Assembly (NCBI GenBank): GCA_002709295.1
Contig: PAQL01000002.1
Coordinates: forward strand, 1-64,000
DNA: 64,000 nt
Origin: Phycisphaerae bacterium
Lineage (GTDB): Bacteria > Planctomycetota > Phycisphaerae > Phycisphaerales > SM1A02
Direction of reading: 5' to 3'
Both the position numbers and the translations under genes were made by a program. Of the stretch, positions 27,380-52,840 are shown one piece after another. Every line of letters starts with the position of its first letter. Within the stretch, counting starts at the first letter, position 1. The notes under the pieces were generated by a model. The model made no database searches. It was not told the origin of the DNA and saw only the letters and a list, made by a program, of their open reading frames with translations.

Positions 27380-28114
27380 TCAGTCGAACTCGTCTCCTCG
27401 GAAGGTGCTGGCCAGATAGGCGTTTCGAACCTCCGGATCGTTGATGATCGACCGGGGGTCGCCCTCCTTGAGGTTCTGTCCCTGATGAATGATGTACGCC
27501 CGATCGCAGATGCGGAGGGTCTGCTGCACGTTGTGGTCGGTGACCAGCATCGCGATCCCCTCGTCGGCGAGACGACGGACCTCGGCCTGCAGCTCCTCGA
27601 CGGTGTGGGGGTCGACGGCCGCGAAGGGTTCGTCCAGGAGCATCAGCCTCGGACGAGTCACGAGGGCGCGGGCGATCTCGAGGCGGCGTCTCTCTCCGCC
27701 GGAGCAGGTTCGTGCGAACTCCTTGCGCTTGTGGATGAGCCCGAACTGCTCCAGAAGCTCGTCGCAGCGTCGCTGTCGAGCGTCGCGGTCCAGGCCGCGG
27801 GTCTCGAGAATGGCGAGGACGTTCTGTTCGACGGTCAGTTTCTGGAAGACGCTGGGTTCCTGGCTGAGGTACCCCATGCCGTACTGGGCGTGGCGGTACA
27901 TCGGCTCGGTGGTCAGGTCCCGATCATCGAAGACGACCTTCCCCTCCTCGGGGGTGAGCATCCCGATGGTCATCCGGAAGGAAGTGGTCTTCCCGGCTCC
28001 GTTGCGGCCGAGGAGGCCGACGATCTCGCCGGCATCGACCTCGAATCCGACCCCGTCGACGACCTTCCGGCCACCGTAGCTCTTCTGCAGATCCCTGACT
28101 TCGAGCAATGCCAT
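27380..28114 (-). CDS. lptB: LPS export ATPase LptB
   Basis: A 244-residue ABC ATPase that powers extraction of LPS from the inner membrane with LptF/LptG. Walker A GRNGAGKTT, Q-loop region GMGYLSQEPSVFQKLTVEQNV (typical of LptB), signature CSGGERRR with Cys for the usual Leu, Walker B LMLLDEPFAAVD, H-loop VTDHN. The related branched-amino-acid ATPases share the fold, but the YLSQEPSVF segment favours LptB. It stands alone here; LptF/LptG are not in the window. A TACGAT box 6 nt before the ATG suggests a leaderless message. Confidence 0.92.
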   Translation of the reverse strand: MALLEVRDLQKSYGGRKVVDGVGFEVDAGEIVGLLGRNGAGKTTSFRMTIGMLTPEEGKVVFDDRDLTTEPMYRHAQYGMGYLSQEPSVFQKLTVEQNVLAILETRGLDRDARQRRCDELLEQFGLIHKRKEFARTCSGGERRRLEIARALVTRPRLMLLDEPFAAVDPHTVEELQAEVRRLADEGIAMLVTDHNVQQTLRICDRAYIIHQGQNLKEGDPRSIINDPEVRNAYLASTFRGDEFD

Positions 28115-28120
28115 GCCCCG

Positions 28121-28126
28121 ATCGTA
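28121..28126 (-). promoter_or_regulatory. -10-like box next to the lptB start
   Basis: TACGAT on the minus strand, 6 nt before the ATG at 28114. It sits in a 66-bp divergent intergenic region whose other strand carries a matching promoter for the PEGA lipoprotein. Confidence 0.4.
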
Positions 28127-28144
28127 TCCGACCTCGGGTCAGGC

Positions 28145-28173
28145 TTGCCGAGCGGGGCCTGCTCGGCTACAAC
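28145..28173 (+). promoter_or_regulatory. Promoter of the PEGA lipoprotein, apparently leaderless
   Basis: TTGCCG (28145-28150), 17-nt spacer, TACAAC (28168-28173). The ATG follows at 28181, only 7 nt after the -10, so transcription should begin at or beside the start codon. Confidence 0.6.
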
Positions 28174-28180
28174 CAGCACC

Positions 28181-28852
28181 ATGCCAGACGACCGTTCATC
28201 ATCGTTCGAGGCGATCTCCGGGGCCTGCAGGGCCGGTCGGATCGTCCTGATGGGACTGATCATGGGCGGTCTCCTCGTCGGAGGGGGCTGTGTCCGACGG
28301 GTCGTGGAGATCACCTCCGAGCCGTCGGGAGCGGTCGTCTGGATGAACGATCGGGAGGTGGGATCCACCCCCTGCGAGGTGGAGATCCTCCACTACGGGA
28401 CCTACGACCTGCGGGTGGTCAAGCCCGGATACGAGCCTGCGGTCACCGGTCGCAGGGCCGCTCCGCCGGCATGGGATCTCCCCGGGCCGGACCTGATCGC
28501 CGAGCTGCTCCCCATGGAGCTTGAAAGCCGGAACTCCTGGCACGTGAAGCTCGTGATCGAGGACATGTCCACCGATGCGGTGATCCAGCGGGCGATCATC
28601 GAACGTGATCGCCTTGCGGCGCTCGACCGTCGTGATCCCATCGATCCCGAGGCCGGGATCGAGGAGGGGCTGGTCGAGAAGGTCGAACGAGCCGACGGCC
28701 TCCGTCCGGTCGAACCCGGTCAGCCGGTGCAGGGTGCCGTGCAGCCGGTCGAGCCCGACCCGGTCGCCGAGCCGGGAGTTCCCGGGCTTGATCCCGGTTC
28801 CGATCCCGGCCGGGACCCCGACATGCCTGCAGGGTCGTCCGAGGACGAATGA
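28181..28852 (+). CDS. PEGA-domain lipoprotein
   Basis: A 223-residue predicted lipoprotein. The signal (MGLIMGGLLVGGGC, about 24-37) has a lipobox-like end. The mature N-terminus is a PEGA domain (VEITSEPSGAVVWMNDREVGSTPCEVEI...YDLRVVKPGYEPA), a surface beta-sandwich. A charged helical segment and a disordered Pro/Asp/Gly tail (about 165-223) follow. The tail may lie in the periplasm near peptidoglycan. It diverges from lptB, which hints at an envelope role. Confidence 0.78.
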   Translation: MPDDRSSSFEAISGACRAGRIVLMGLIMGGLLVGGGCVRRVVEITSEPSGAVVWMNDREVGSTPCEVEILHYGTYDLRVVKPGYEPAVTGRRAAPPAWDLPGPDLIAELLPMELESRNSWHVKLVIEDMSTDAVIQRAIIERDRLAALDRRDPIDPEAGIEEGLVEKVERADGLRPVEPGQPVQGAVQPVEPDPVAEPGVPGLDPGSDPGRDPDMPAGSSEDE

Positions 28853-29003
28853 AACGACATCCCGGATCCTTCTGAAGTCCTCGCGAAGGCGGGTCGATCC
28901 ATCATGGTCGGACCCCGCGGATCGCGATCGGGTCCGCCGCCGCGGGATGGCATGTGGTGTGCCGATCCCGTCGATGAACCCGGATCGAGGAGGGTGGCCG
29001 ACC

Positions 29004-29405
29004 GTGGGCAGTCGAAGAGGTCCGAAGGTGCTCGTCGTCGACGATGATCGGATGAGCGTTCTGATGATCGCAAGGGTCGCCAGCGGTCTCGGGTGCGACT
29101 GTGTGACCGCCCGGACCGGAGCCTCCGCATGGCGGGAGTTCATCCGAACGCGTTTCGACCTCGTGGTCACCGATCTCAACATGCCCGGTGGTGACGGCGC
29201 GGTGCTCGCACGGCGGATCCGCGAGCGTTCCGAGGTGCCGGTTCTTCTGGTGACCGCGCTGGATGCCGCGACTCCGGCGGCCTGCGGGGTGATCGGTCTC
29301 GAGGGGGTCGAGGTCCTCCGGAAGCCGGTGGTTCCCCCCGATCTTCGGCACGCCATCGAACGCCGCCTCGAGGACGGGCATCCCGGGATGCTTCAGACCG
29401 CCTGA
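29004..29405 (+). CDS. Stand-alone response-regulator receiver protein
   Basis: A 133-residue single REC domain. The acid pair VVDDDR, phospho-acceptor Asp in VVTDLNMPGGDG, switch Thr in LLVTALD and Lys in VLRKPV are all present. There is no output domain. The GTG at 29004 is preferred because AGGAGGG (28988-28994) lies 9 nt upstream; ATGs at 28974 and 28947 lack such a site. No histidine kinase is adjacent, so its partner is elsewhere. Single REC proteins usually act by protein contact or in phosphorelays. Confidence 0.85.
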   Translation: MGSRRGPKVLVVDDDRMSVLMIARVASGLGCDCVTARTGASAWREFIRTRFDLVVTDLNMPGGDGAVLARRIRERSEVPVLLVTALDAATPAACGVIGLEGVEVLRKPVVPPDLRHAIERRLEDGHPGMLQTA

Positions 29406-29440
29406 GGATCCCCGGCGGTGCGAGTAAGATCGGGATCGAT

Positions 29441-30475
29441 ATGGCAGCCCGCCTTGCGATTCCGCTTCCGGTCCTTGACGACGGCCCTCAGCGCCCCGTC
29501 CATGCCCAGGGCCCGAGATCGCTCTCCGCGGTCCGCATGCTTCGAATCTCGCTGACCGATCGCTGCAATCTGCGTTGTCGGTACTGCATGCCCGAGGAAG
29601 GGGTCTCCTTCGTCCCGAAGGAGCATCTCCTCGATGTCGATTCGATCGTCGAGATCGCCGGGGTCGCCCATGGCTTCGGGGTCCGGCACTTCAAGCTCAC
29701 CGGTGGGGAACCCACGCTCCGATCGGATCTGTCGGAGGTCGTGAAGGGATTGAGGGCGCTGCCGGGCGTCGACATCTCGATGACCACCAACGGGATCCAT
29801 CTCCCACGTCTGATCCGGCCGCTCCACGACGCCGGTCTGAATCGTCTCACGATCTCTATCGATTCCCTCCGTCCGGACCGTTATCGCGAGATCACCGGGG
29901 GAGGGCGTCTCGAACGGGTGATCGAGGGATTCGAGGCCGCTGCGAGCGTGTTCGGTCCGCCGAAGTTGAACGTGGTGGCGATGCGGGGTGTCAACGACGA
30001 CGAGTTCCTGGACTTCGCCCGCTTCGCCATCCGACACGACTCGACGGTTCGTTTCATCGAGTTCATGCCTCTGGGGGAGAGCACGCTCGCCGACGTCGAT
30101 CCGTCCACGGTGCTCGTCACCGCGGAGGAGATGATCGAGGTCCTGTCCGTAACCCTGGGCAGGCTCGAGCCCCTCGAGTTCGGGGCGGATCCCGGCGTCG
30201 GTCCGGCCCGGCTCTTCGCCTGTCCGGGAGGGCGCGGTCGGATCGGTTTCATCCATGCGATGAGCCGACCGTTCTGCGAGACCTGCAATCGTCTTCGACT
30301 GACCGCCACCGGCACCCTTCGCAGCTGTCTTTTCGACGGAGGCGAGGTCGAGCTGGCTCCACTCCTCGGTTCCGGGGACGAGGTCATCCGTGATGCCTTC
30401 GCCCGGTGCACGGCCTTCAAGCCCGAGGTCCATCGTGGCCGGGGAGAACGGGCGATGAGCTCGATCGGTGGTTGA
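29441..30475 (+). CDS. moaA: GTP 3',8-cyclase MoaA
   Basis: Radical-SAM enzyme for the first step of molybdenum cofactor synthesis. The N-terminal cluster is bound by CNLRCRYC; the second cluster by CETCNRLRLTATGTLRSC near the C-terminus, a MoaA hallmark. The tail ends in Gly-Gly (SSIGG), which is needed for activity in known enzymes. At 344 residues it has normal length. A TAAGAT box 10 nt before the ATG is a possible -10. No other moa genes are in the window. Confidence 0.96.
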   Translation: MAARLAIPLPVLDDGPQRPVHAQGPRSLSAVRMLRISLTDRCNLRCRYCMPEEGVSFVPKEHLLDVDSIVEIAGVAHGFGVRHFKLTGGEPTLRSDLSEVVKGLRALPGVDISMTTNGIHLPRLIRPLHDAGLNRLTISIDSLRPDRYREITGGGRLERVIEGFEAAASVFGPPKLNVVAMRGVNDDEFLDFARFAIRHDSTVRFIEFMPLGESTLADVDPSTVLVTAEEMIEVLSVTLGRLEPLEFGADPGVGPARLFACPGGRGRIGFIHAMSRPFCETCNRLRLTATGTLRSCLFDGGEVELAPLLGSGDEVIRDAFARCTAFKPEVHRGRGERAMSSIGG

Positions 30476-30507
30476 CAGCAGCCCGGGCATCGATTCCCCT
30501 GCATCGC

Positions 30508-31305
30508 ATGAGACATGAACTTCTCCAGTGTTCCGCGGCCGCGAGTCGTGTCGCTCTCCGGCCCATGCTTCTTCTGCTCACGCTTCTCGTGGTCGCCTGC
30601 GGAGACTCCGGCTCCTCGACCTCCTCGTCCGTCGAGGGGGAGATCTTCGGAACCGCCGCCGAGGGCGGCACCGCCCAGGCCGGCACCGCATGGCAGTCCT
30701 CGCTCGAAGTGTGGCCGAGGCAGGGGAACCTCAGCATCCTCTACGGCTCTCCTCGCATGCAGGCCGAGTTCGAGAACTGGCTCCGCGGACTCGGTACGCC
30801 GGGAGAGGAACTCACTCCGGTGTTCGTGAAGATCAGGGAGTTCAACGATCCCTTGATCGCCCTGGACGGCGGCTGGGGGGCGTTGCCGGAACCGGACAAG
30901 GTCCGTTCCATGTCGGTGCGCGGAATGCGAAAGACCCTCTGGTCCGATCTGCGGCTGGCAGTGGTCGAGGGGGATGCAGATCGGGCCACCGATGTGATGG
31001 TCGTGATGTGCAACCTGCCCCGGGTCTGTCACACCTTCGATGGAACCACCCGGGGGCTTCTCGCGACGCTGGGCACGTGCGATGCCATCGGATGGGGGAT
31101 GCGGGACATGAGCACCGGCGGACTGGAGCTTGATGAAGGGCAGAAGTCGAGGATTCGCGAGGCCTCGAGCTGGCTGGACGCACCGGCCCCCTTCGGGACC
31201 GTCGACGTCCCAGAGGATGATCCGAGACGGGCGGAGATGCTCGTGCAGTTCAGGAATCAGACGCTTCCACCGATCATGGATGCACGCGTCAGACTTCTGG
31301 ACTGA
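30508..31305 (+). CDS. Lipoprotein of unknown function
   Basis: A 265-residue predicted lipoprotein. The ATG at 30508 starts MRHELLQCSAAASRV and leads to a hydrophobic segment with lipobox LLVVAC. A Ser/Gly/Ala-rich linker precedes a helical domain (about 55-265) with WLRGLGTPGEELTPVFVKIREF and a middle Cys pair (VVMCNLPRVCHTFDG). No family recognised. It follows moaA by 32 bp and may be co-transcribed, with no evident functional link. Confidence 0.72.
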   Translation: MRHELLQCSAAASRVALRPMLLLLTLLVVACGDSGSSTSSSVEGEIFGTAAEGGTAQAGTAWQSSLEVWPRQGNLSILYGSPRMQAEFENWLRGLGTPGEELTPVFVKIREFNDPLIALDGGWGALPEPDKVRSMSVRGMRKTLWSDLRLAVVEGDADRATDVMVVMCNLPRVCHTFDGTTRGLLATLGTCDAIGWGMRDMSTGGLELDEGQKSRIREASSWLDAPAPFGTVDVPEDDPRRAEMLVQFRNQTLPPIMDARVRLLD

Positions 31306-44315: not shown

Positions 44316-45239
44316 GTGGCAGCAATGCGATCGAGCGTCAGTGGGCCTCGAACTTCGAGGGATCTTCGGGCCGGCGACATCAAGCACGGATTCCGGATCC
44401 TCTCCCGTCTCGGGAACGATCCGGATCGAGGCGTCTTTCTGGCCGCCCACGCCCAACGAGGTGACCTGGTGGTGTTGAAGAACGCCTGCCGGGCGTCGGA
44501 GCCGGATTCGTTCGAGCGGATCCTCCGGGAGCACGACGTGCTGTCCGGCCTGTCCGATCCGACCATTCGCCCGGCGGTGAGGATTCACCGGGTCCGGGAG
44601 GGACTGCGGACGACCGAAGTCACCCTGGTGGCTCGCTTCGTGGACGCGTCGGATCTCTCCGAGTCCAACGAGATCGATGCGGCCGCGGTGCTGACTGCGG
44701 CCGCGGGTGCGTGCGAAGGGCTCGCTCATGCTCATGAAGGCGAGATCGTGCATGGCCGGATGGACGCCGGCCACATCCTGCGTGAACCCGGTGGCGGGAT
44801 CAGGATCATCGGCTTCGGTTCCGCGGTGAAGGCAGGGACGAGGTTCGATGCCGAGGAGGCCGGTGGCGGATTCCTCGCCCCGGAATGCCACCTTGGTGGC
44901 GTGGCGACCGGACGAACCGACATCTTCGGTCTGGCGGCCATGGTCTGGAGTCTTCTGGGCGGTTCGGACCTCGAGTCCGGTTTCGAAGAGGAACTCGACG
45001 GAGAGGGCTGGCTCGTCCGGCATCGTTCATGGAGGAGGCGGATCGAGGAGTCGTCGATGTCGCCCCGGCTGGCGGCCCTCCTGGTTCGCTGCCTGCATCC
45101 GGACCCGCTTCGTCGCCCCGCATCCATCAAGGCGGTCGGAGACGCGTTGCAGCGACTCGTCCCGGAGGTCGCCTGCGATTCCTCGATGCGGATCGGTCAG
45201 TCCCGGGGATCCGGGACGGGGTCGGCACGAGCCGCCTGA
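44316..45239 (+). CDS. Ser/Thr protein kinase-fold pseudokinase
   Basis: A 307-residue kinase-like protein. The VAIK-type Lys is kept (LVVLKN, K55), as are the C-helix Glu region (EHDVL) and an APE-like FLAPEC. The catalytic loop reads VHGRMDAGHIL, lacking the catalytic Asp, Lys and Asn of HRDLKPxN, and the DFG motif is GFG (165-167). It should therefore not transfer phosphate by the normal mechanism. GTG 44316 has AGGAG at 6 nt. It is followed by a related gene that keeps these residues (45436-46290), sharing LRTTE...FVD, so the pair probably arose by duplication and may act together. Confidence 0.82.
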   Translation: MAAMRSSVSGPRTSRDLRAGDIKHGFRILSRLGNDPDRGVFLAAHAQRGDLVVLKNACRASEPDSFERILREHDVLSGLSDPTIRPAVRIHRVREGLRTTEVTLVARFVDASDLSESNEIDAAAVLTAAAGACEGLAHAHEGEIVHGRMDAGHILREPGGGIRIIGFGSAVKAGTRFDAEEAGGGFLAPECHLGGVATGRTDIFGLAAMVWSLLGGSDLESGFEEELDGEGWLVRHRSWRRRIEESSMSPRLAALLVRCLHPDPLRRPASIKAVGDALQRLVPEVACDSSMRIGQSRGSGTGSARAA

Positions 45240-45435
45240 ATCACCCGGGGCCGACCGGGATCGATGCAGGTCCGGAATCGTGATCGAAGCACCTTTCTTC
45301 CCATGAAATCGAGGTGCTGGATGCAACCATCGGCCGGGAAATCCGAACAGTGAGGACTGGCGACCTTCAGGGTGGAGAGCCCGAAGGACCGGGACAGGCA
45401 CTCTTCAACCAGTGGGTCGAGAAGCAGGGGCAGTC

Positions 45436-46290
45436 ATGGTCTATCTCAAGCAGGATCATCCCGACTTCATCCATGGATACCGGGTGCTCGCGCCGCTGGG
45501 CGAGGGTGCCGCCAGCAGGCTCTTCGTGGTTCACGACCCCGAAAGCCGTGAGCTGCTCGCCCTCAAGCATGTCCGGGTCGCGTCCACCGACCAGAGGCGT
45601 TTCCTGGCCCAGGCCGAACGCGAGCACCAGGTCGCCTCCCGGGTGAGATCACGGACCGTCCGTCGTTCCCGTCGACTGGTGCGCTACCGCGAGCTTCTGC
45701 GAACCACCGAGATCGCCCTGGTCATGGACTTCGTGGATGGCAGGCCGCTCGACGTCGCGGGACGGCTTCCACTCTGGGAACTCGTCTCGATCTTCGCGGA
45801 TGCCGCGGCGGGGCTGGCTCATCTGCACGACCTCGGATGGGCCCACGCCGATCTGAAGCCCGGCAACGTCATCCGGACCGGGCCGGGACGGGCCACGCTC
45901 ATCGACCTCGGTCAGTCGTGCCGGCTCGGAGAGGTCAAGTCGAGAATCCAGGGCACCCCCGGTTTCCTCTCCCCGGAGCAGCTCGAGCTCGGCCCGATCG
46001 ATGCCCGCACCGACGCCTTCCTCCTCGGAGCGATGATCTATCGCCAGCTCACCGGACGCTACGCCGCGGGTGGCATCACCAGAACGGTCGAACGACCGCC
46101 GCTTCGCCGCCTCGCCGCTTCTGCTCCGCCGGAGCTCGAGGAGCTGGTGGATCGCTGTCTGGATCCGAATCCCGACCGTCGCCCATCGAACCTCGAGCGG
46201 ATCGCGGACCGGCTCGCCGGCTGCGCCGAGGCCCTGCACGCGTCCGATGGCGACGGTCTGCCCCGGACGGTCCTTGCCGGAACCGGCTGA
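45436..46290 (+). CDS. Ser/Thr protein kinase, short cytoplasmic form
   Basis: A 284-residue kinase domain without membrane or sensor domains. Gly-rich loop LGEGAASRLF (third Gly replaced), Lys in LALKHV (K44), catalytic loop HADLKPGNVI (D139, K141, N144), metal Asp in IDLGQS (D157, DLG for DFG) and GTPGFLSPEQL as activation segment. Residues for activity are present, so it is probably active. ATG 45436 is used; the frame is open to 45412. It lies 196 bp after the pseudokinase; a 7-bp stem AGCACCT/AGGTGCT occurs in between. Confidence 0.87.
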   Translation: MVYLKQDHPDFIHGYRVLAPLGEGAASRLFVVHDPESRELLALKHVRVASTDQRRFLAQAEREHQVASRVRSRTVRRSRRLVRYRELLRTTEIALVMDFVDGRPLDVAGRLPLWELVSIFADAAAGLAHLHDLGWAHADLKPGNVIRTGPGRATLIDLGQSCRLGEVKSRIQGTPGFLSPEQLELGPIDARTDAFLLGAMIYRQLTGRYAAGGITRTVERPPLRRLAASAPPELEELVDRCLDPNPDRRPSNLERIADRLAGCAEALHASDGDGLPRTVLAGTG

Positions 46291-46327: not shown

Positions 46328-46870
46328 ATGTCGACCACCGATCCGACCGACCCTGCGGACATCCGCCTGCTCTGCCTCGACGTCGACGGCGTCCTGACGG
46401 ATGGGTCCATCCTCATCGACGACCGGGGCGTGGAGACCAAGCGGTTCTTCGTCCGCGACGGGACCGCCCTGCGTGCCTGGCAGCGGGCCGGAGGCATCGT
46501 GGCCATCATCACCGGGCGAGGGGGCGAGGCCCTCGAGCGACGCGCCGCGGAGCTCGGCATCGACATCGTTCGAAGCCTGGTCGCCGACAAGGGGCCGGTG
46601 TTCGAGGAGCTTCTCTCCGAGCTCGGCCTCTCGGCCCGGGAGGCGGCGATGGTGGGGGATGACCTGCCGGATCTGCCCGTCCTCGATCGCTGCGGCTACC
46701 CTGTTGCAGTGAACGATGCGGTGCCGGAAGTGAAGTCGATCGCTCGGTTCGCAACCACCTCGCCAGGAGGGCGAGGTGCGGTTCGCGAGGTCGTGGAGCA
46801 TCTTCTTCAGGCCCGTGGCGCCTGGGATGCCGAAGTGGCCTTCCATCGCGAGCCTGACCGACGATCCTGA
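46328..46870 (+). CDS. kdsC: 3-deoxy-D-manno-octulosonate 8-phosphate phosphatase
   Basis: A 180-residue HAD phosphatase that makes free Kdo for the LPS inner core. The nucleophile motif LCLDVDGVLTDGSI, IITGRGGEALERRAAELG, Lys in VADKGP and the metal motif MVGDDLPDLPVL are all KdsC-type, and no cap domain is present. It sits 39 bp before the giant LptC/LptA-like gene, matching the kdsC-lptC-lptA order of many Gram-negatives. Confidence 0.93.
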   Translation: MSTTDPTDPADIRLLCLDVDGVLTDGSILIDDRGVETKRFFVRDGTALRAWQRAGGIVAIITGRGGEALERRAAELGIDIVRSLVADKGPVFEELLSELGLSAREAAMVGDDLPDLPVLDRCGYPVAVNDAVPEVKSIARFATTSPGGRGAVREVVEHLLQARGAWDAEVAFHREPDRRS

Positions 46871-46909
46871 CCCGGGTCGTGATTTCCGGATTCGAACGCA
46901 GGAGGCGTC

Positions 46910-49900
46910 ATGGCGGATCTCAGGAACGATCTCAGGATCAGAATGTCGGGAGCGATGTTCAGACCCGGGCGACGCGGTGCGGTGGATCGTCGGCCTCTGT
47001 ACACGATCGCCGGAGGTGTCGCACTGGCCTCGCTGCTGCTGCTGGCCATCTGGCAGCTGGGCGGCGAGGACACAGGCGACACGCGGCGTGAACGGACCGT
47101 CGATCTGGAACGCATCGTGATTCCGACCGTCCCGACCCGGGATGAACTCGCGGACCCCGCCACTTCGATCGATCGAGACGCGCTCGCCGGACTACGCGAG
47201 GGCGCGTCCGTGCAGGTCGCCGACGAGAACGGGCGACTTGCCCAGGAGTACGGCGCGGCTCGCATCGATCCGCTTCCCGATTCATGGGTCGAGATGGACC
47301 GGCCCTGGGCGAGGATTCACGGTTCCGGCGGGCGACTGGTGGAGATGCAGGCCGTCGAGGGGACGATGCGGGTGCCCGATCAGGCCCTCGAATCCGGCCG
47401 GCTCGATGGCGATGTCCGCATCCGGCTCTTCGAGTCGGGGCAGGACCCGGCCACCAGTGCGCCATCGGTCGTCATCACCGCGGATGATGCCGAATACGAC
47501 TCCGGGATCGGCGAGATCCGCAGCCGCCGACGCGTCCGGGTGGCCACCGCCGATGCGGTCTTCGTCGGGGAGGATCTTCGGATCGTCCTTGGTGACGAGG
47601 GGGCGAGGATCGAGCGACTGACCGTCGAGCGGGCGTTGGAGCCGATCCGCATCCAGCCGGGTGGGCAGATCGATTCCGGTCGTGCCGATGCCGTCGTTCG
47701 CGGGTCGAGCACCCCGGATCCGCTCGCTGCCGCCGGGATCTCCGATCGGGTGATGGCGTCCGGTGACACCCCGGAGACGTCCTCCCGGGGCACTGTCCCG
47801 TCCGGGATCGGACGGTCGGCGCCGACCGACGAGGATGATCCCGTCTATCGCGAGGCCGTCTACCGGCTGGTGCTCGAGGACGATGTCGTGATCGAGCGGC
47901 GGACCCTCGATGCCGACGGGCGAGTTCAGCGAAGCATGGTTCGTGGCGATCGACTTCTGGCCTTCTTCCAGCTCGGTGATCAGGGCGAGGATGTCGATCT
48001 GCTCTCGTCCGGAGCCGATCGGATCATGCCGCCGATCTCCGTGCACTCGCCCACCACGATGGTCGCGGCCGGAATCCTGACCGCGACTCACCTCGATCGG
48101 TCGGTCGAGGAGGATGTGGTGCTGGTCCGCTACTCGGGACGGCTGGTGATGACGCCGGATCCGACGGCCGCGGACCGACTTCGTTCCTCCGACGACTCCG
48201 TCATGATCGTCGAGGGATTCGAGGGACGCGGGATCGAGATCGAGGACGAGGCCAATGATGCCGCGGGGCAGGCGAAGTTCCTCGAGTATCGAACCCGGGA
48301 CGATCGAGTCGAACTGGTCGGTGACGAGGCCCACCCGCTGCACCTCGGCAGTCCTCGATTCACCCTCGATGGTGGTCGGTTCTGGTTCGAGCGGACCACC
48401 GGGCAGGGAGGGCTCATCGGCCCCGGTCGGATGATGCTGGAGCAGGACGCCTCCGAATCGCTGCGAGCGGCGGTCGATGGCGGGGTGCTCGGGGTCGATC
48501 TGATGATCGATCGCATGCTGGCCGATGCCTCCTCCGAGGCGAGTGCCGCACTGGTCTCCGCCACGCTCACCGCGCTGGGGACCCCGATCCAGGACGACCC
48601 CGCCGATGCGCCGCCTCGTCTGGAGATCGTCTGGGAGGGAGGTGTCGACCTCGACTTCGTGGAAGGGACCGATGCCCGTCTCCAGCAGGCGAGGTTCAAC
48701 GGCGACGTGAAGGTGGTCGGGGACGAGTTCAAGCTGGGGTCCGATTCACTGGTCGTCGACTTCGATCCCACCGGTGAGGCCGACGCGATCGATCGGATCC
48801 TCGCCCTCGGTGGAGCCCGGGTGGACCGGGTCGGAGAGAACGGGTCCCTCGAGGCCTCGCAGATCGATCTCGGTCTGGTCCGCACCGACGACGGTCGGAC
48901 GATCCCGAGCGAGATGATCGCCAGGGGAGAGGTCTCGGCGAAGGATCCGTCCCAGACGCTCTGGACCGAGCGACTGGTCGTGACCTTCCGCGAATCCGAT
49001 GGCAGCACCGATCGTGCGGAACGCGGTCTGGCCGGCGGTCTCGCAGGAGACGTCGCCGGACAGCCGGAGATGGGCGATGTGGAGATTCATCGCCTCAGCG
49101 CGACCGATGCGGTGCAGATCCGTCTCGATGAAGGGGCAAGGGTCTTCGCCGATCAGCTCAAGGGCGATGCCGCGGCCGGTCTGCTCGAGTTGTCGGGAGA
49201 GGACGTCATGGTGCTTCGTGGCAACGTGATCGCGGACCGCATGCGGGAGGTTCGACTCAACGACACCGCCAGGACCGTCCGGAGCCCCGGACCCGGGCGT
49301 TTCCGTTACTACGACGATCCGATCGTGAAACCGTCCGAGGTTCGAATCGAGCGTCCGAACCCCACGACGAGAACCTCGCTGGCCGCGACCTGGCGGGAGG
49401 CGATGGCGTATCGCCAGGCCCCCGACGGAGAGACCGGTCGGCTCGATCTCGAAGGTGATGTCCGGGTTCGAAGCACGCCCGACGCCCGCACCAGTGATCG
49501 CCTCGATGCTCGATCCGTCTCCCTGGATCTTTCCCATGGCGCGGGCGGCGTCCGGGACCGGGAGGAGCGTGGCAAGGCTGATCTGCTGGCCCGCCGGGGC
49601 GACACGAGCCTGGAGCGGATGGTGGCCCGGGGAGATGCGATCCTCGAGAGCCGGACCTGGGAGGATGATCGAAAGCTGGGCGACCCGAGGCTCTTCCGTG
49701 TCACCGGAGACCTCGTCGACTACCGGGTGGAGAGCGGCGAAGCCCTGGTCGAGGGAGCGGGCGGCCTTCTGGTCCACGACCCTCGGCCGTCCGGGGATCG
49801 ACGGATCGACGCGCCGGTAGAGGCCGGGTTCGGGGTGGACGGCACGACTCGCTTCCGTTGGGAACGTCGGATGTCCATGAATCGGGAGATCGACGGTCGC

Positions 49901-50314
49901 TACCTCGTGGTCATGGAGCAGGGCGTCGAGGTCCTTCATGCCGGCCTTGTCGAGCAGGACACCATGACCCTCACCGGGGACCGGCTGGAGGTCACCCTCG
50001 ATCGTCCGGACTCCGATCAGCCGGTGAAGCCGCGTCAGGCGGAGGGCGGGATCGAACTCGGGGGCCCGGCGGACATCGTCCGGGTCCGGGGCATGGGAAG
50101 GGTCTTCGTCCGCACCCCGGAGCATGACGTCGAATGCGAGGAGTTCGACTACAACGTGGACACCGGGATCGCGATGCTCCGGGCGGCGCCCGGTCGCGTG
50201 GTCACGGTGCAGACGAAAGCGGCGACCACGCCCATCCGCGCCGAGCGGGTCCTCTGGGACCTGCGAAGCGGACGTCTCCGGATTCTCGGCGGGGAAGGCG
50301 GCATCAGCCGCTGA
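46910..50314 (+). CDS. Giant LptC/LptA-like LPS-transport protein
   Basis: A 1134-residue protein. One N-terminal helix (about 30-50, YTIAGGVALASLLLLAIWQL) anchors a very long periplasmic beta region. The first part resembles LptC (VEMQAVEGTMRVP, ITADDAEYDSGIGEIRSRRRVRV). Later segments repeat the OstA/LptA pattern of short strands such as DGDVRIRLFES, LDLEGDVRVRSTPDARTSDRLDARSVSLDL, and DVECEEFDYNVDTGIAMLRAAPGRV. Family lengths are about 190 (LptC) and 180 (LptA), so this looks like a fused or expanded beta-jellyroll bridge for carrying LPS. It follows kdsC by 39 bp. lptB lies at 27380. Exact module number needs structure prediction. Confidence 0.82.
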   Translation: MADLRNDLRIRMSGAMFRPGRRGAVDRRPLYTIAGGVALASLLLLAIWQLGGEDTGDTRRERTVDLERIVIPTVPTRDELADPATSIDRDALAGLREGASVQVADENGRLAQEYGAARIDPLPDSWVEMDRPWARIHGSGGRLVEMQAVEGTMRVPDQALESGRLDGDVRIRLFESGQDPATSAPSVVITADDAEYDSGIGEIRSRRRVRVATADAVFVGEDLRIVLGDEGARIERLTVERALEPIRIQPGGQIDSGRADAVVRGSSTPDPLAAAGISDRVMASGDTPETSSRGTVPSGIGRSAPTDEDDPVYREAVYRLVLEDDVVIERRTLDADGRVQRSMVRGDRLLAFFQLGDQGEDVDLLSSGADRIMPPISVHSPTTMVAAGILTATHLDRSVEEDVVLVRYSGRLVMTPDPTAADRLRSSDDSVMIVEGFEGRGIEIEDEANDAAGQAKFLEYRTRDDRVELVGDEAHPLHLGSPRFTLDGGRFWFERTTGQGGLIGPGRMMLEQDASESLRAAVDGGVLGVDLMIDRMLADASSEASAALVSATLTALGTPIQDDPADAPPRLEIVWEGGVDLDFVEGTDARLQQARFNGDVKVVGDEFKLGSDSLVVDFDPTGEADAIDRILALGGARVDRVGENGSLEASQIDLGLVRTDDGRTIPSEMIARGEVSAKDPSQTLWTERLVVTFRESDGSTDRAERGLAGGLAGDVAGQPEMGDVEIHRLSATDAVQIRLDEGARVFADQLKGDAAAGLLELSGEDVMVLRGNVIADRMREVRLNDTARTVRSPGPGRFRYYDDPIVKPSEVRIERPNPTTRTSLAATWREAMAYRQAPDGETGRLDLEGDVRVRSTPDARTSDRLDARSVSLDLSHGAGGVRDREERGKADLLARRGDTSLERMVARGDAILESRTWEDDRKLGDPRLFRVTGDLVDYRVESGEALVEGAGGLLVHDPRPSGDRRIDAPVEAGFGVDGTTRFRWERRMSMNREIDGRYLVVMEQGVEVLHAGLVEQDTMTLTGDRLEVTLDRPDSDQPVKPRQAEGGIELGGPADIVRVRGMGRVFVRTPEHDVECEEFDYNVDTGIAMLRAAPGRVVTVQTKAATTPIRAERVLWDLRSGRLRILGGEGGISR

Positions 50315-50326
50315 GGTCGGTCATCC

Positions 50327-51109
50327 CTAGAGCTCGGTGCGAATCGCCCAGAGATCGGGGAACAACGACTTGAACAGCGTCTCTCGCAGGTAGGTGACCC
50401 CCGGCGATCCTCCGGTTCCCTTCTTGAAGCCGATGGTGCGCTCGACCATCTTGACGTGTCGGTACCGCCATTCCTGGATGCCCTCGTCGAGATCCACCAG
50501 CAGTTCGCAGAGGCTGCGGAGCGCCGGGTCCTCACGATACAAGCGGACCAGTTCATCATGGAACGGCTCGCAGATCACGGTCGGTTCCTCGACCGCGGCG
50601 GACGTGGCCTCGGGGGGGACGGCGACGCCGCGTCCGGCCAGGAATTGGAGGAACGCGGTCCAGAGCGAGGGTTCGGCCAGTCGTCGCTCGAGGGCCCTGC
50701 GCTCCGGGCTGTCGGGTTCGTAGTTCTCGAGGGGACGTGGTCGCTTGTGACCGAGCATGAACTCCCACTCCCGGAACTGGGCGCTCTGGAATCCACTGGA
50801 GTTGGCCAGGAACGACCGGAAGGACAGGAAGGACACCGGGGTCATCGTCTCGAGGACGTCGACCTGGGCGACCATGGTCTTCAGGATGGTCAGCATCCTT
50901 CCCAGGGTCGCTTCGGCGGAGAAGAGGTCGTCCTCTCCAAGCACCTGGATCAGGCGTTCGGTCTCGTGGATCTGCTGGCGGAACCAGAGCTCGTAGACCT
51001 GATGGATGACGATGAATAGAAGCTCGTCGTGCTCCGGCCCCTCGGATCGGGGGGACTGGAGTTCGAGGAGTTCGTTGATGCGGAGATAGTCGGCGTAGGT
51101 GAGGCTCAC
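50327..51109 (-). CDS. kynA: Tryptophan 2,3-dioxygenase
   Basis: Haem enzyme opening the indole ring of tryptophan to N-formylkynurenine. A 260-residue protein with the family blocks YLRINELLELQ, DELLFIVIHQVYELWFRQ, FLANSSGFQSAQFREWEFMLG, the haem-ligand His region WRYRHVKMVERTIG and GTGGSPGVTYLRETL. It is convergent with the LptC/A-like gene (12 bp) and has no kynurenine-pathway neighbours; a shared operon with crtN upstream (25 bp apart) is possible from spacing. Confidence 0.95.
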   Translation of the reverse strand: MSLTYADYLRINELLELQSPRSEGPEHDELLFIVIHQVYELWFRQQIHETERLIQVLGEDDLFSAEATLGRMLTILKTMVAQVDVLETMTPVSFLSFRSFLANSSGFQSAQFREWEFMLGHKRPRPLENYEPDSPERRALERRLAEPSLWTAFLQFLAGRGVAVPPEATSAAVEEPTVICEPFHDELVRLYREDPALRSLCELLVDLDEGIQEWRYRHVKMVERTIGFKKGTGGSPGVTYLRETLFKSLFPDLWAIRTEL

Positions 51110-51134
51110 ACCGCGGATGGTACGGGGTAGCCGA

Positions 51135-52703
51135 TCACGAGGCGCCGACGGTCTCCGTCGGAGTCCATGCCGGAGTCTCCCGGAGGCCGTGCTCCCGACA
51201 GACCAGGTCCGCCGTGATCTGGCTGGAGAGGAAGATCACCGGCAGCCCCGAGCCGGGATGAGTGCCGCCTCCGACCATCCAGACCCCGTCGACGTCCTCG
51301 AGCCGGTGCTGGGGGCGTCGATGAAGCATCTGATCGAGGCCGTGGGCGAGATTGAAGGTGGCCCCGAGGTTGATCCGTTCCGCCTCCCAGTCCGCGGGGG
51401 TGATCATCCTCTCCGCACGGATCCGTGAGCGGACGTCCTTGATCCCGAAGACGGTCTCGAGTCGGTCGAGGGTGGCCTCGCGGTACTTGAGGCCCTCCTG
51501 CTGCCAGTCGATGTCGCCCTTGCCGACATTCGGCGTGGGGACGAGCACGTAGAGAGAGGAGTGTCCCTCCGGGGCCATCGAGGGGTCGATCCGAGATGGG
51601 TTGTGGACGTAGGTGGAGGCATCCTCGGTCAGACGTCCGTCGCCGATGTCCTCGAGATTGTCCTGGTAGGTCTTCGAGGTGTAGATCGTGTGGTGGGGGA
51701 GATCGACGTCCCCTTCGAGACCCAGATAGAGCATGAAGGTGCTGCAGCTGTAACGGCGGGTGTCGATCTTCCGATCCGACCACTTCCGACGCAGATTCGC
51801 GGGGATCAGGTTCTTCATCGCCCAGGTCGCATCCGCGTTGACGATCACCTCGTCGTAGGCATGGGCTCCCGAACCGGTGCGGAGGCCGCGGGCGCGGCGA
51901 CCGTCGAACTCGATCTCCTCAACCGGATCGGCGAGCTCGATCCGGCCGCCCAGTTTCTCGAACGCCTCGGCCATCGCCTGCACGAGCGCGTTGCATCCAC
52001 CCTTCGGATGCCAGACTCCGTACTCGTACTCGATGAAGGGAAGGATCGAGAACAGGCCCGGGCATTCGAAGGGACTCATGCCCAGATACTTGCTCTGGAA
52101 GGAGAGGGCGAGCCTGATGTGGTCGTTCCTGAAGTAGCTCGAGAGATTGCCGTGGACCGACTGCCATGGCTTCAGACTCGGGCCGACCTTGATGGCGTCC
52201 ATCTTCACGAGGTCCAGAAGCGATCGCACCGGCCTTCGGAGGATGGGCGTCATGAGCGACAGCTTCCGACGGTTGTCGGTCATGAACCGGCGGAATGCGG
52301 CCCCGTCTCCGGGCTCGATGGAATCGAGGGTCGCGGCCATCCGGTCGATGTCCTGGGTCGCATCGATGACCAGCGGGTCCTGTTCGGGACGTCCGATGAC
52401 CAGGCGGTACATGGGATCGAGGCGATGAAGGTCCGCGTGATCGGAGAGGCGCAGTCCGCAACGGCCGAAGATCTCCTCCAGCACCCATGGCATCATGAAG
52501 AAGGTCGGTCCGGTGTCGAAGCGGTACGGCCCGATCTCGAGGGTTCTCGTCCGACCACCAACCCGGGGCTGGGCTTCGTGGATGACGACCTCGGCCCCGG
52601 CGTGGGCGAGGAGCATCGCCGATGCGAGCCCCCCGGGACCGGCGCCGACGATGCCGATCCGGGGAGATCCGGTACGGTCCGAGTTCGGCGAGGTGGCGAT
52701 CAT
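51135..52703 (-). CDS. crtN: CrtN-like C30 carotenoid desaturase
   Basis: A 522-residue FAD-dependent carotenoid desaturase. The Rossmann motif GIVGAGPGGLASAMLL and GGRTRTLEIGPYRFDTGPTF are at the N-terminus. YSCSTFMLYLGLEGDV, the MAPEGHSSLYVLVPTPN block and GGGTHPGSGLPVIFLSS at the C-terminus closely match dehydrosqualene desaturase CrtN. It would convert dehydrosqualene or squalene into coloured C30 polyenes. ATG 52703 is preferred since GAAGGA lies just upstream; ATG 52721 is the alternative. It diverges from the aldehyde dehydrogenase of the same pathway. Confidence 0.85.
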   Translation of the reverse strand: MIATSPNSDRTGSPRIGIVGAGPGGLASAMLLAHAGAEVVIHEAQPRVGGRTRTLEIGPYRFDTGPTFFMMPWVLEEIFGRCGLRLSDHADLHRLDPMYRLVIGRPEQDPLVIDATQDIDRMAATLDSIEPGDGAAFRRFMTDNRRKLSLMTPILRRPVRSLLDLVKMDAIKVGPSLKPWQSVHGNLSSYFRNDHIRLALSFQSKYLGMSPFECPGLFSILPFIEYEYGVWHPKGGCNALVQAMAEAFEKLGGRIELADPVEEIEFDGRRARGLRTGSGAHAYDEVIVNADATWAMKNLIPANLRRKWSDRKIDTRRYSCSTFMLYLGLEGDVDLPHHTIYTSKTYQDNLEDIGDGRLTEDASTYVHNPSRIDPSMAPEGHSSLYVLVPTPNVGKGDIDWQQEGLKYREATLDRLETVFGIKDVRSRIRAERMITPADWEAERINLGATFNLAHGLDQMLHRRPQHRLEDVDGVWMVGGGTHPGSGLPVIFLSSQITADLVCREHGLRETPAWTPTETVGAS

Positions 52704-52840
52704 GCAGAATCCTTCGTTCACCGGGGTGCGTGGATGCGTGGCGGTGTTCGCCGCATCCGAAAATCCGACTCAAAAGTAGCGAATCCGAAGGGGATCTGCT
52801 CCCGAAGGCGCTGCCCATCGGTTCATATGTCCCGACCATC

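Follow-up and report, generated by a model that had tools for sequence, protein, structure and literature searches.

A probable single-chain LptC–(LptA)n bridge protein encoded directly behind kdsC in a planctomycete genome

A gene for a 1134-residue protein located directly behind kdsC in a planctomycete genome probably specifies the complete periplasmic bridge of the Lpt machine in a single polypeptide, an LptC–(LptA)n fusion. In this wholly computational analysis the best reading, and one which we consider likely, is that a single chain has taken the place of LptC and the stack of LptA copies. This reading is based on the gene itself, its anchor and predicted fold, its family resemblance, its synteny and the presence of LptB, LptF/LptG and LptD.

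The window, meaning the whole stretch of 64,000 nucleotides that was analysed, contains the open reading frame (ORF) that an earlier note on this DNA had reported as adjoining kdsC, and this ORF is a real, conserved gene, with a Shine–Dalgarno-like site before it (Table 1) and conserved homologues in related genomes. Its nearest relatives are found in Phycisphaerae/Phycisphaerales assemblies, at a best identity of 58–59%, and for this reason the label of planctomycete used in that note is right. The gene preceding it scores 144.2 bits against TIGR01670, where the cut-off is 106.95, which identifies it as KdsC. The order in E. coli K-12 is kdsD–kdsC–lptC (191 aa)–lptA (185 aa)–lptB, and the fused bridge gene keeps the kdsD/kdsC–lptC–lptA part of this order. 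The note put its product at about three times the length of LptC and LptA together, and with the E. coli lengths the ratio is indeed 3.0. Unlike in E. coli, lptB is not found behind the bridge gene in the window. Downstream on the opposite strand (50327–52721, −) are a tryptophan 2,3-dioxygenase-like gene and a gene for an FAD amine oxidoreductase, and a dioxygenase-like ORF was also seen by eye behind the bridge gene at two further loci (L138 and L146). Two consecutive protein-kinase-like genes (44316–46290) immediately precede kdsC. Promoter and terminator scans were uninformative.

Table 1. Positions of the bridge gene, the predicted parts of its product and the other Lpt genes of the genome (positions in the window unless a contig or locus is given)
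Feature	Position	Strand	Basis
Gene for the 1134-aa bridge protein, a probable LptC–(LptA)n fusion	46910..50314	+	ATG-started ORF, homologues, Pfam, AlphaFold2, structure search
Shine–Dalgarno-like site, AGGAGG	46900..46905	+	Ends four bases before the ATG
kdsC	46328..46870	+	TIGR01670 and E. coli KdsC match; 39 bp upstream of the bridge gene
N-terminal transmembrane anchor, residues 28–50	46991..47059	+	AlphaFold2 helix; hydropathy
LptC-like jellyroll (predicted), residues 97–250	47198..47659	+	Pfam LptC at 97–218; VIA-align to 6mjp_C
LptA-like beta modules (predicted), residues 315–1127, about four LptA-equivalents	47852..50290	+	Pfam LptD_N at 591–634; 2r19_B match; repeat registers; strand count
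Hydrophobic low-confidence loop, residues 357–400	47978..48109	+	Signal-peptide-like in 34 of 50 sequences
Second hydrophobic loop, residues 512–569	48443..48616	+	Held by 28 of 50 sequences, hydrophobic in 21 of the 28; absent from shorter homologues
lptB, ATPase of the Lpt machine	27380..28114	−	315.9 bits with TIGR04406 (cut-off 240)
LptF and LptG	G000:C2, about 92136–95305 (same contig as the bridge gene)		Found in the genome
LptD, 1063 aa	L084:1390–4581 (G000:C5, about 27779–30970)		Lineage profile, 1140 bits

The fold was predicted with AlphaFold2 from 50 sequences, namely the protein of the window and those from 49 of 74 homologous loci, giving a mean pLDDT of 79.3 and a pTM of 0.66, with 622 of the 1134 residues at 90 or more; a model made from the single sequence (pLDDT 31) was discarded. 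The model consists of one helix, at residues 28–50, followed by an all-beta structure with strands from residue 99 to 1126, and this single N-terminal transmembrane helix, also apparent from the hydropathy, agrees with the membrane anchor that the earlier note had claimed. In a VIA-align search ranks 1–27 were taken up wholly by LptC, LptA/LptH and LptD, with OspA (Z 8.6) the earliest unrelated entry. Residues 98–240 align with Vibrio LptC (6mjp_C; Z 16.3, rmsd 2.7 over 128 residues), residues 926–1107 with E. coli LptA (2r19_B; Z 13.5, rmsd 2.8 over 132 of 141 residues) and residues 339–658 with an LptD N-terminal domain (Z 11.7, rmsd 3.3 over 161 residues). Some of the LptD rows in the list have an rmsd of 18–24 Å and carry little meaning. 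The best Foldseek match was LptD (4q35_A, E 2e-8), in a list that also holds unrelated large beta proteins at lower probability. No VIA-align row separately spans the whole of residues 660–925, and the assignment of this stretch is based on the model and on repeat registers in the sequence. Both the LptC-like start and the OstA-like modules that had been proposed for the rest of the chain were thus recovered as predicted jellyrolls of the LptC/LptA type.

LptA has 16 strands, and each strand adds 4.8 Å per sheet. By strand count, the model has 16 half-strands in residues 97–250 and 66 in residues 315–1127, the latter being a rough estimate of 4.1 LptA-equivalents at 16 strands each, and an LptC-like jellyroll followed by about four LptA-equivalents in one chain is largely supported as the predicted arrangement. 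The same count yields rough lengths of ~38 Å for the LptC-like part and ~158 Å for the rest, or ~20 nm in total. Since this span together with the N-terminal domain of LptD roughly fits an ordinary periplasm, the wide planctomycete periplasm that the earlier note had offered as the reason for such a bridge is not needed; its central proposal, of one chain replacing the LptA oligomer, loses this reason and keeps the support of the fold, the likeness to LptC and LptA, the synteny and the Lpt partners.

Against sequence families the whole protein scores 27.4 bits with Pfam LptD_N (PF03968, gathering cut-off 20.4) and 21.3 bits with Pfam LptC (PF06835), only just over the cut-off of 21, with no single stretch being significant alone in either case. 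The scores with NCBIfam LptA (TIGR03002, 18.5 bits) and LptC (TIGR04409, 17.8 bits) fall below the equivalog cut-offs of 71.7 and 38, and single queries with E. coli LptA and LptC find plausible registers that are non-significant (E 0.12 and 0.18). A search of PDB sequences with the bridge-family profile returned two chance matches only. Comparison of the family with itself revealed an internal repeat, residues 740–1110 against 448–967 (E 7e-10). A profile of shorter fusions from other planctomycete lineages (22 rows, in which some genes occur twice; hhalign kept 16) matches the 1134-aa family in the overlapping registers 104–802 (E 3e-15), 666–1128 (5e-12) and 450–955 (1e-9), where the controls, a reversed profile and eight out of eight column shuffles, gave E 0.3 or worse and the LptD barrel gave 0.6. 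A profile of the N-terminal part of LptD matches the shorter fusions and also the 1134-aa family, weakly at residues 840–1092 (E 6e-5).

With the 1134-aa protein as query, 137 of the 201 genomes in the order, counting its own, gave homologues at E≤1e-3, and the remaining 64 gave none at this threshold. The 74 loci come from a scan of named assemblies with closer alignment, and 62 of them hold the ORF inside the locus ends (719–1280 aa, median 1087, the 719-aa ORF at L126 being interrupted by unknown bases); more distant members within the order have 939–1445 aa. Approximately residues 461–640 are missing from homologues of about 900 aa (alignment occupancy 0.38–0.66), and the length of the bridge therefore seems to change in steps of modules. 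The immediate upstream neighbour is kdsC in 49 of the 68 loci that could be assessed (of 74 in all), in all 18 testable loci of a second set of 30 and in 16 of 29 wider regions, these three sets sharing genomes. Eighteen of the 19 loci without kdsC in this position encode proteins of 887–1087 aa and the other is the interrupted L126; kdsD can abut the bridge gene where kdsC is absent (L043, L047, L203). One relative (L009/L093, G197) is split by an in-frame TAG near its start into pieces of 86 and 1009 aa, which may reflect a pseudogene, an error or a re-start.

Shorter fusions occur elsewhere in the phylum. At five loci (L189, L190, L192, L193 and L197) a protein of 635–793 aa is encoded 13 to 570 bp behind kdsC, with kdsD preceding kdsC in all five. 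By Pfam the shorter fusions score 42–68 bits for LptC and 75–93 bits for LptD_N, the latter in two to four stretches, and E. coli LptA matches them twice (E 5e-6 and 1e-4). They share with the 1134-aa protein the upstream kdsC and an LptC domain followed by LptD_N stretches, and differ from it in their shorter length, stronger family scores and lack of hydrophobic loops. Over L189–L193 and L197, kdsC is found together with an LptC/multi-LptA fusion of 635–1075 aa, and kdsD is present in five of the six. In the phylum as a whole, 51 of 246 genomes had a PF03968 match, and no genome of the order was among them; 15 of the 51 have a single frame of at least 635 aa with two or three matches among those listed, and others have a stand-alone LptA (168 aa, L194) or a 301-aa LptA followed by LptB (L198). 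The phylum is therefore mixed, with single-frame fusions and stand-alone LptA both present.

LptB, LptF/LptG and LptD are all encoded in the same genome as the bridge gene. lptB lies 19 kb from it and shares no operon with it, and the minus-strand ORFs adjoining lptB (28199–29356 and 29393–30490) are not recognised by any Pfam family and might not be real genes. The Pfam LptD models found no match in the genome; they recognise LptD in 77 of 121 genomes of the order, and a profile built from ten of these finds the LptD listed in Table 1, so that the idea of an LptD-free system was rejected. At E≤0.1 this LptD has no match in Pfam, which is likely an annotation blind spot. Speth et al. (2012) report LptD in all planctomycete genomes searched, and their text does not mention lptC (PMC3422733). 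Another paper calls the Lpt set of Planctomycetes largely reduced (PMC8871954).

In the proposed mechanism the N-terminal helix would anchor the chain in the inner membrane, and the first jellyroll would take the place of LptC, where it may bind LptF/LptG and receive LPS from LptB2FG. The chain would then continue with about four LptA-equivalents that share this fold, with LPS passing along them, and would end by docking, through its C-terminal edge, onto the N-terminal jellyroll of LptD, a separate protein. We infer the docking, the passage of LPS, the span by a monomer and the absence of another LptA.

This last point bears on an alternative in which the protein is a greatly extended LptC part and the bridge is completed by a divergent LptA with a gene of its own. 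The earlier note had asked for a check on separate genes, and Pfam searches of the genome detected neither lptA nor lptC; because the same searches also missed the 1134-aa protein, and so could miss a second one, their absence is only likely, and the check, though negative, is a weak one. The genome is also 95% complete. However, profiles of the shorter fusions found no second LptA-like ORF in the window or in the LptFG and LptD regions (the LptD N-terminal domain was missed too, which makes this search weak evidence as well), the 1134-aa protein used as a query matches only itself in its own genome, and LptA itself matches the chain at residues 926–1107, and we regard a separate LptA as unlikely. 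It is very improbable that the cargo of the chain is not LPS but some different lipid, such as another glycolipid or a phospholipid, in the manner of AsmA/TamB-type bridges: beta-groove bridges carry several lipids and a fold does not by itself identify what is carried, but kdsC, and in several relatives kdsD, is directly upstream, LptB, LptFG and LptD are all encoded in the genome, and the structure search has nothing but Lpt proteins among its best matches.

Another alternative is that the product is a precursor, cut at the signal-peptide-like loop 357–400, and perhaps at 512–569, to yield an LptC that stays anchored and a long LptA that is soluble. The first loop is hydrophobic in 39 of 50 sequences, the second is signal-peptide-like in 12 of the 28 that hold it, and five other loops score 0; both loops have low pLDDT, lie at module borders, are alanine-rich and are retained by most relatives. 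Such cutting nevertheless appears distinctly unlikely, as the related shorter fusions have no such hydrophobic loop at their LptC/LptA border, only 15 of 50 sequences have their most hydrophobic stretch beyond the anchor in the junction loop, a third loop (250–316) is also signal-peptide-like in 7 of 49, and alanine-rich loops are common in GC-rich genomes. The two loops may be membrane contacts, sites of cutting or fossil signal peptides, although the idea that they are fossil signal peptides of a fused LptA is weakened by the other fusions, which are without them.

The single-chain bridge that we favour resembles LptC (YrbK) in its N-terminal anchor, its jellyroll and its position after kdsC, and differs from it in running on for ~880 residues and in scoring below the NCBIfam LptC cut-off. 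With LptA (YhbN/OstA) it has in common the jellyroll, an LptD_N score over the Pfam cut-off and the gene order, whereas the LptA-like part has here no gene or signal peptide of its own; because it is part of an anchored chain, the protein is classed as a fusion working like LptC plus LptA and not as LptA. The N-terminal domain of LptD gives a weak profile match, and the bridge protein has no outer-membrane barrel, LptD being a separate protein in the genome. The E. coli bridge is made of two proteins, one of them stacked in non-covalent copies, whereas the planctomycete bridge appears to be one long anchored protein with about four equivalents in tandem. According to one review, the number of LptA copies in the E. 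coli bridge is unknown (PMC10094684). The literature titles and abstract openings that were searched name no LptC–LptA fusion, tandem LptA or planctomycete Lpt protein, and domain databases may list the combination.

A natural single-chain bridge would fix its stoichiometry in a gene, would offer a monomer for structural work and would let one ask whether module number tracks periplasm width across lineages. It would also explain how a planctomycete can seem to be without lptA and lptC in annotation, and it supports a full LPS export route in these bacteria. More tentatively, the bridge might be a genetically encoded ruler: the gene would set how many modules a chain has, planctomycete lineages would differ in this number (chains of about 640 to 1445 aa), and the membrane spacing of each lineage would be set by, or tuned to, the length of one molecule, in contrast to a variable LptA stack; we see this as possible rather than probable. 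An LptF/LptG-like protein at L034 (7137–9188) has 683 residues, far more than the 360 or so usual for such proteins; ~160 of them precede the Pfam domain, which seems to carry an insertion.
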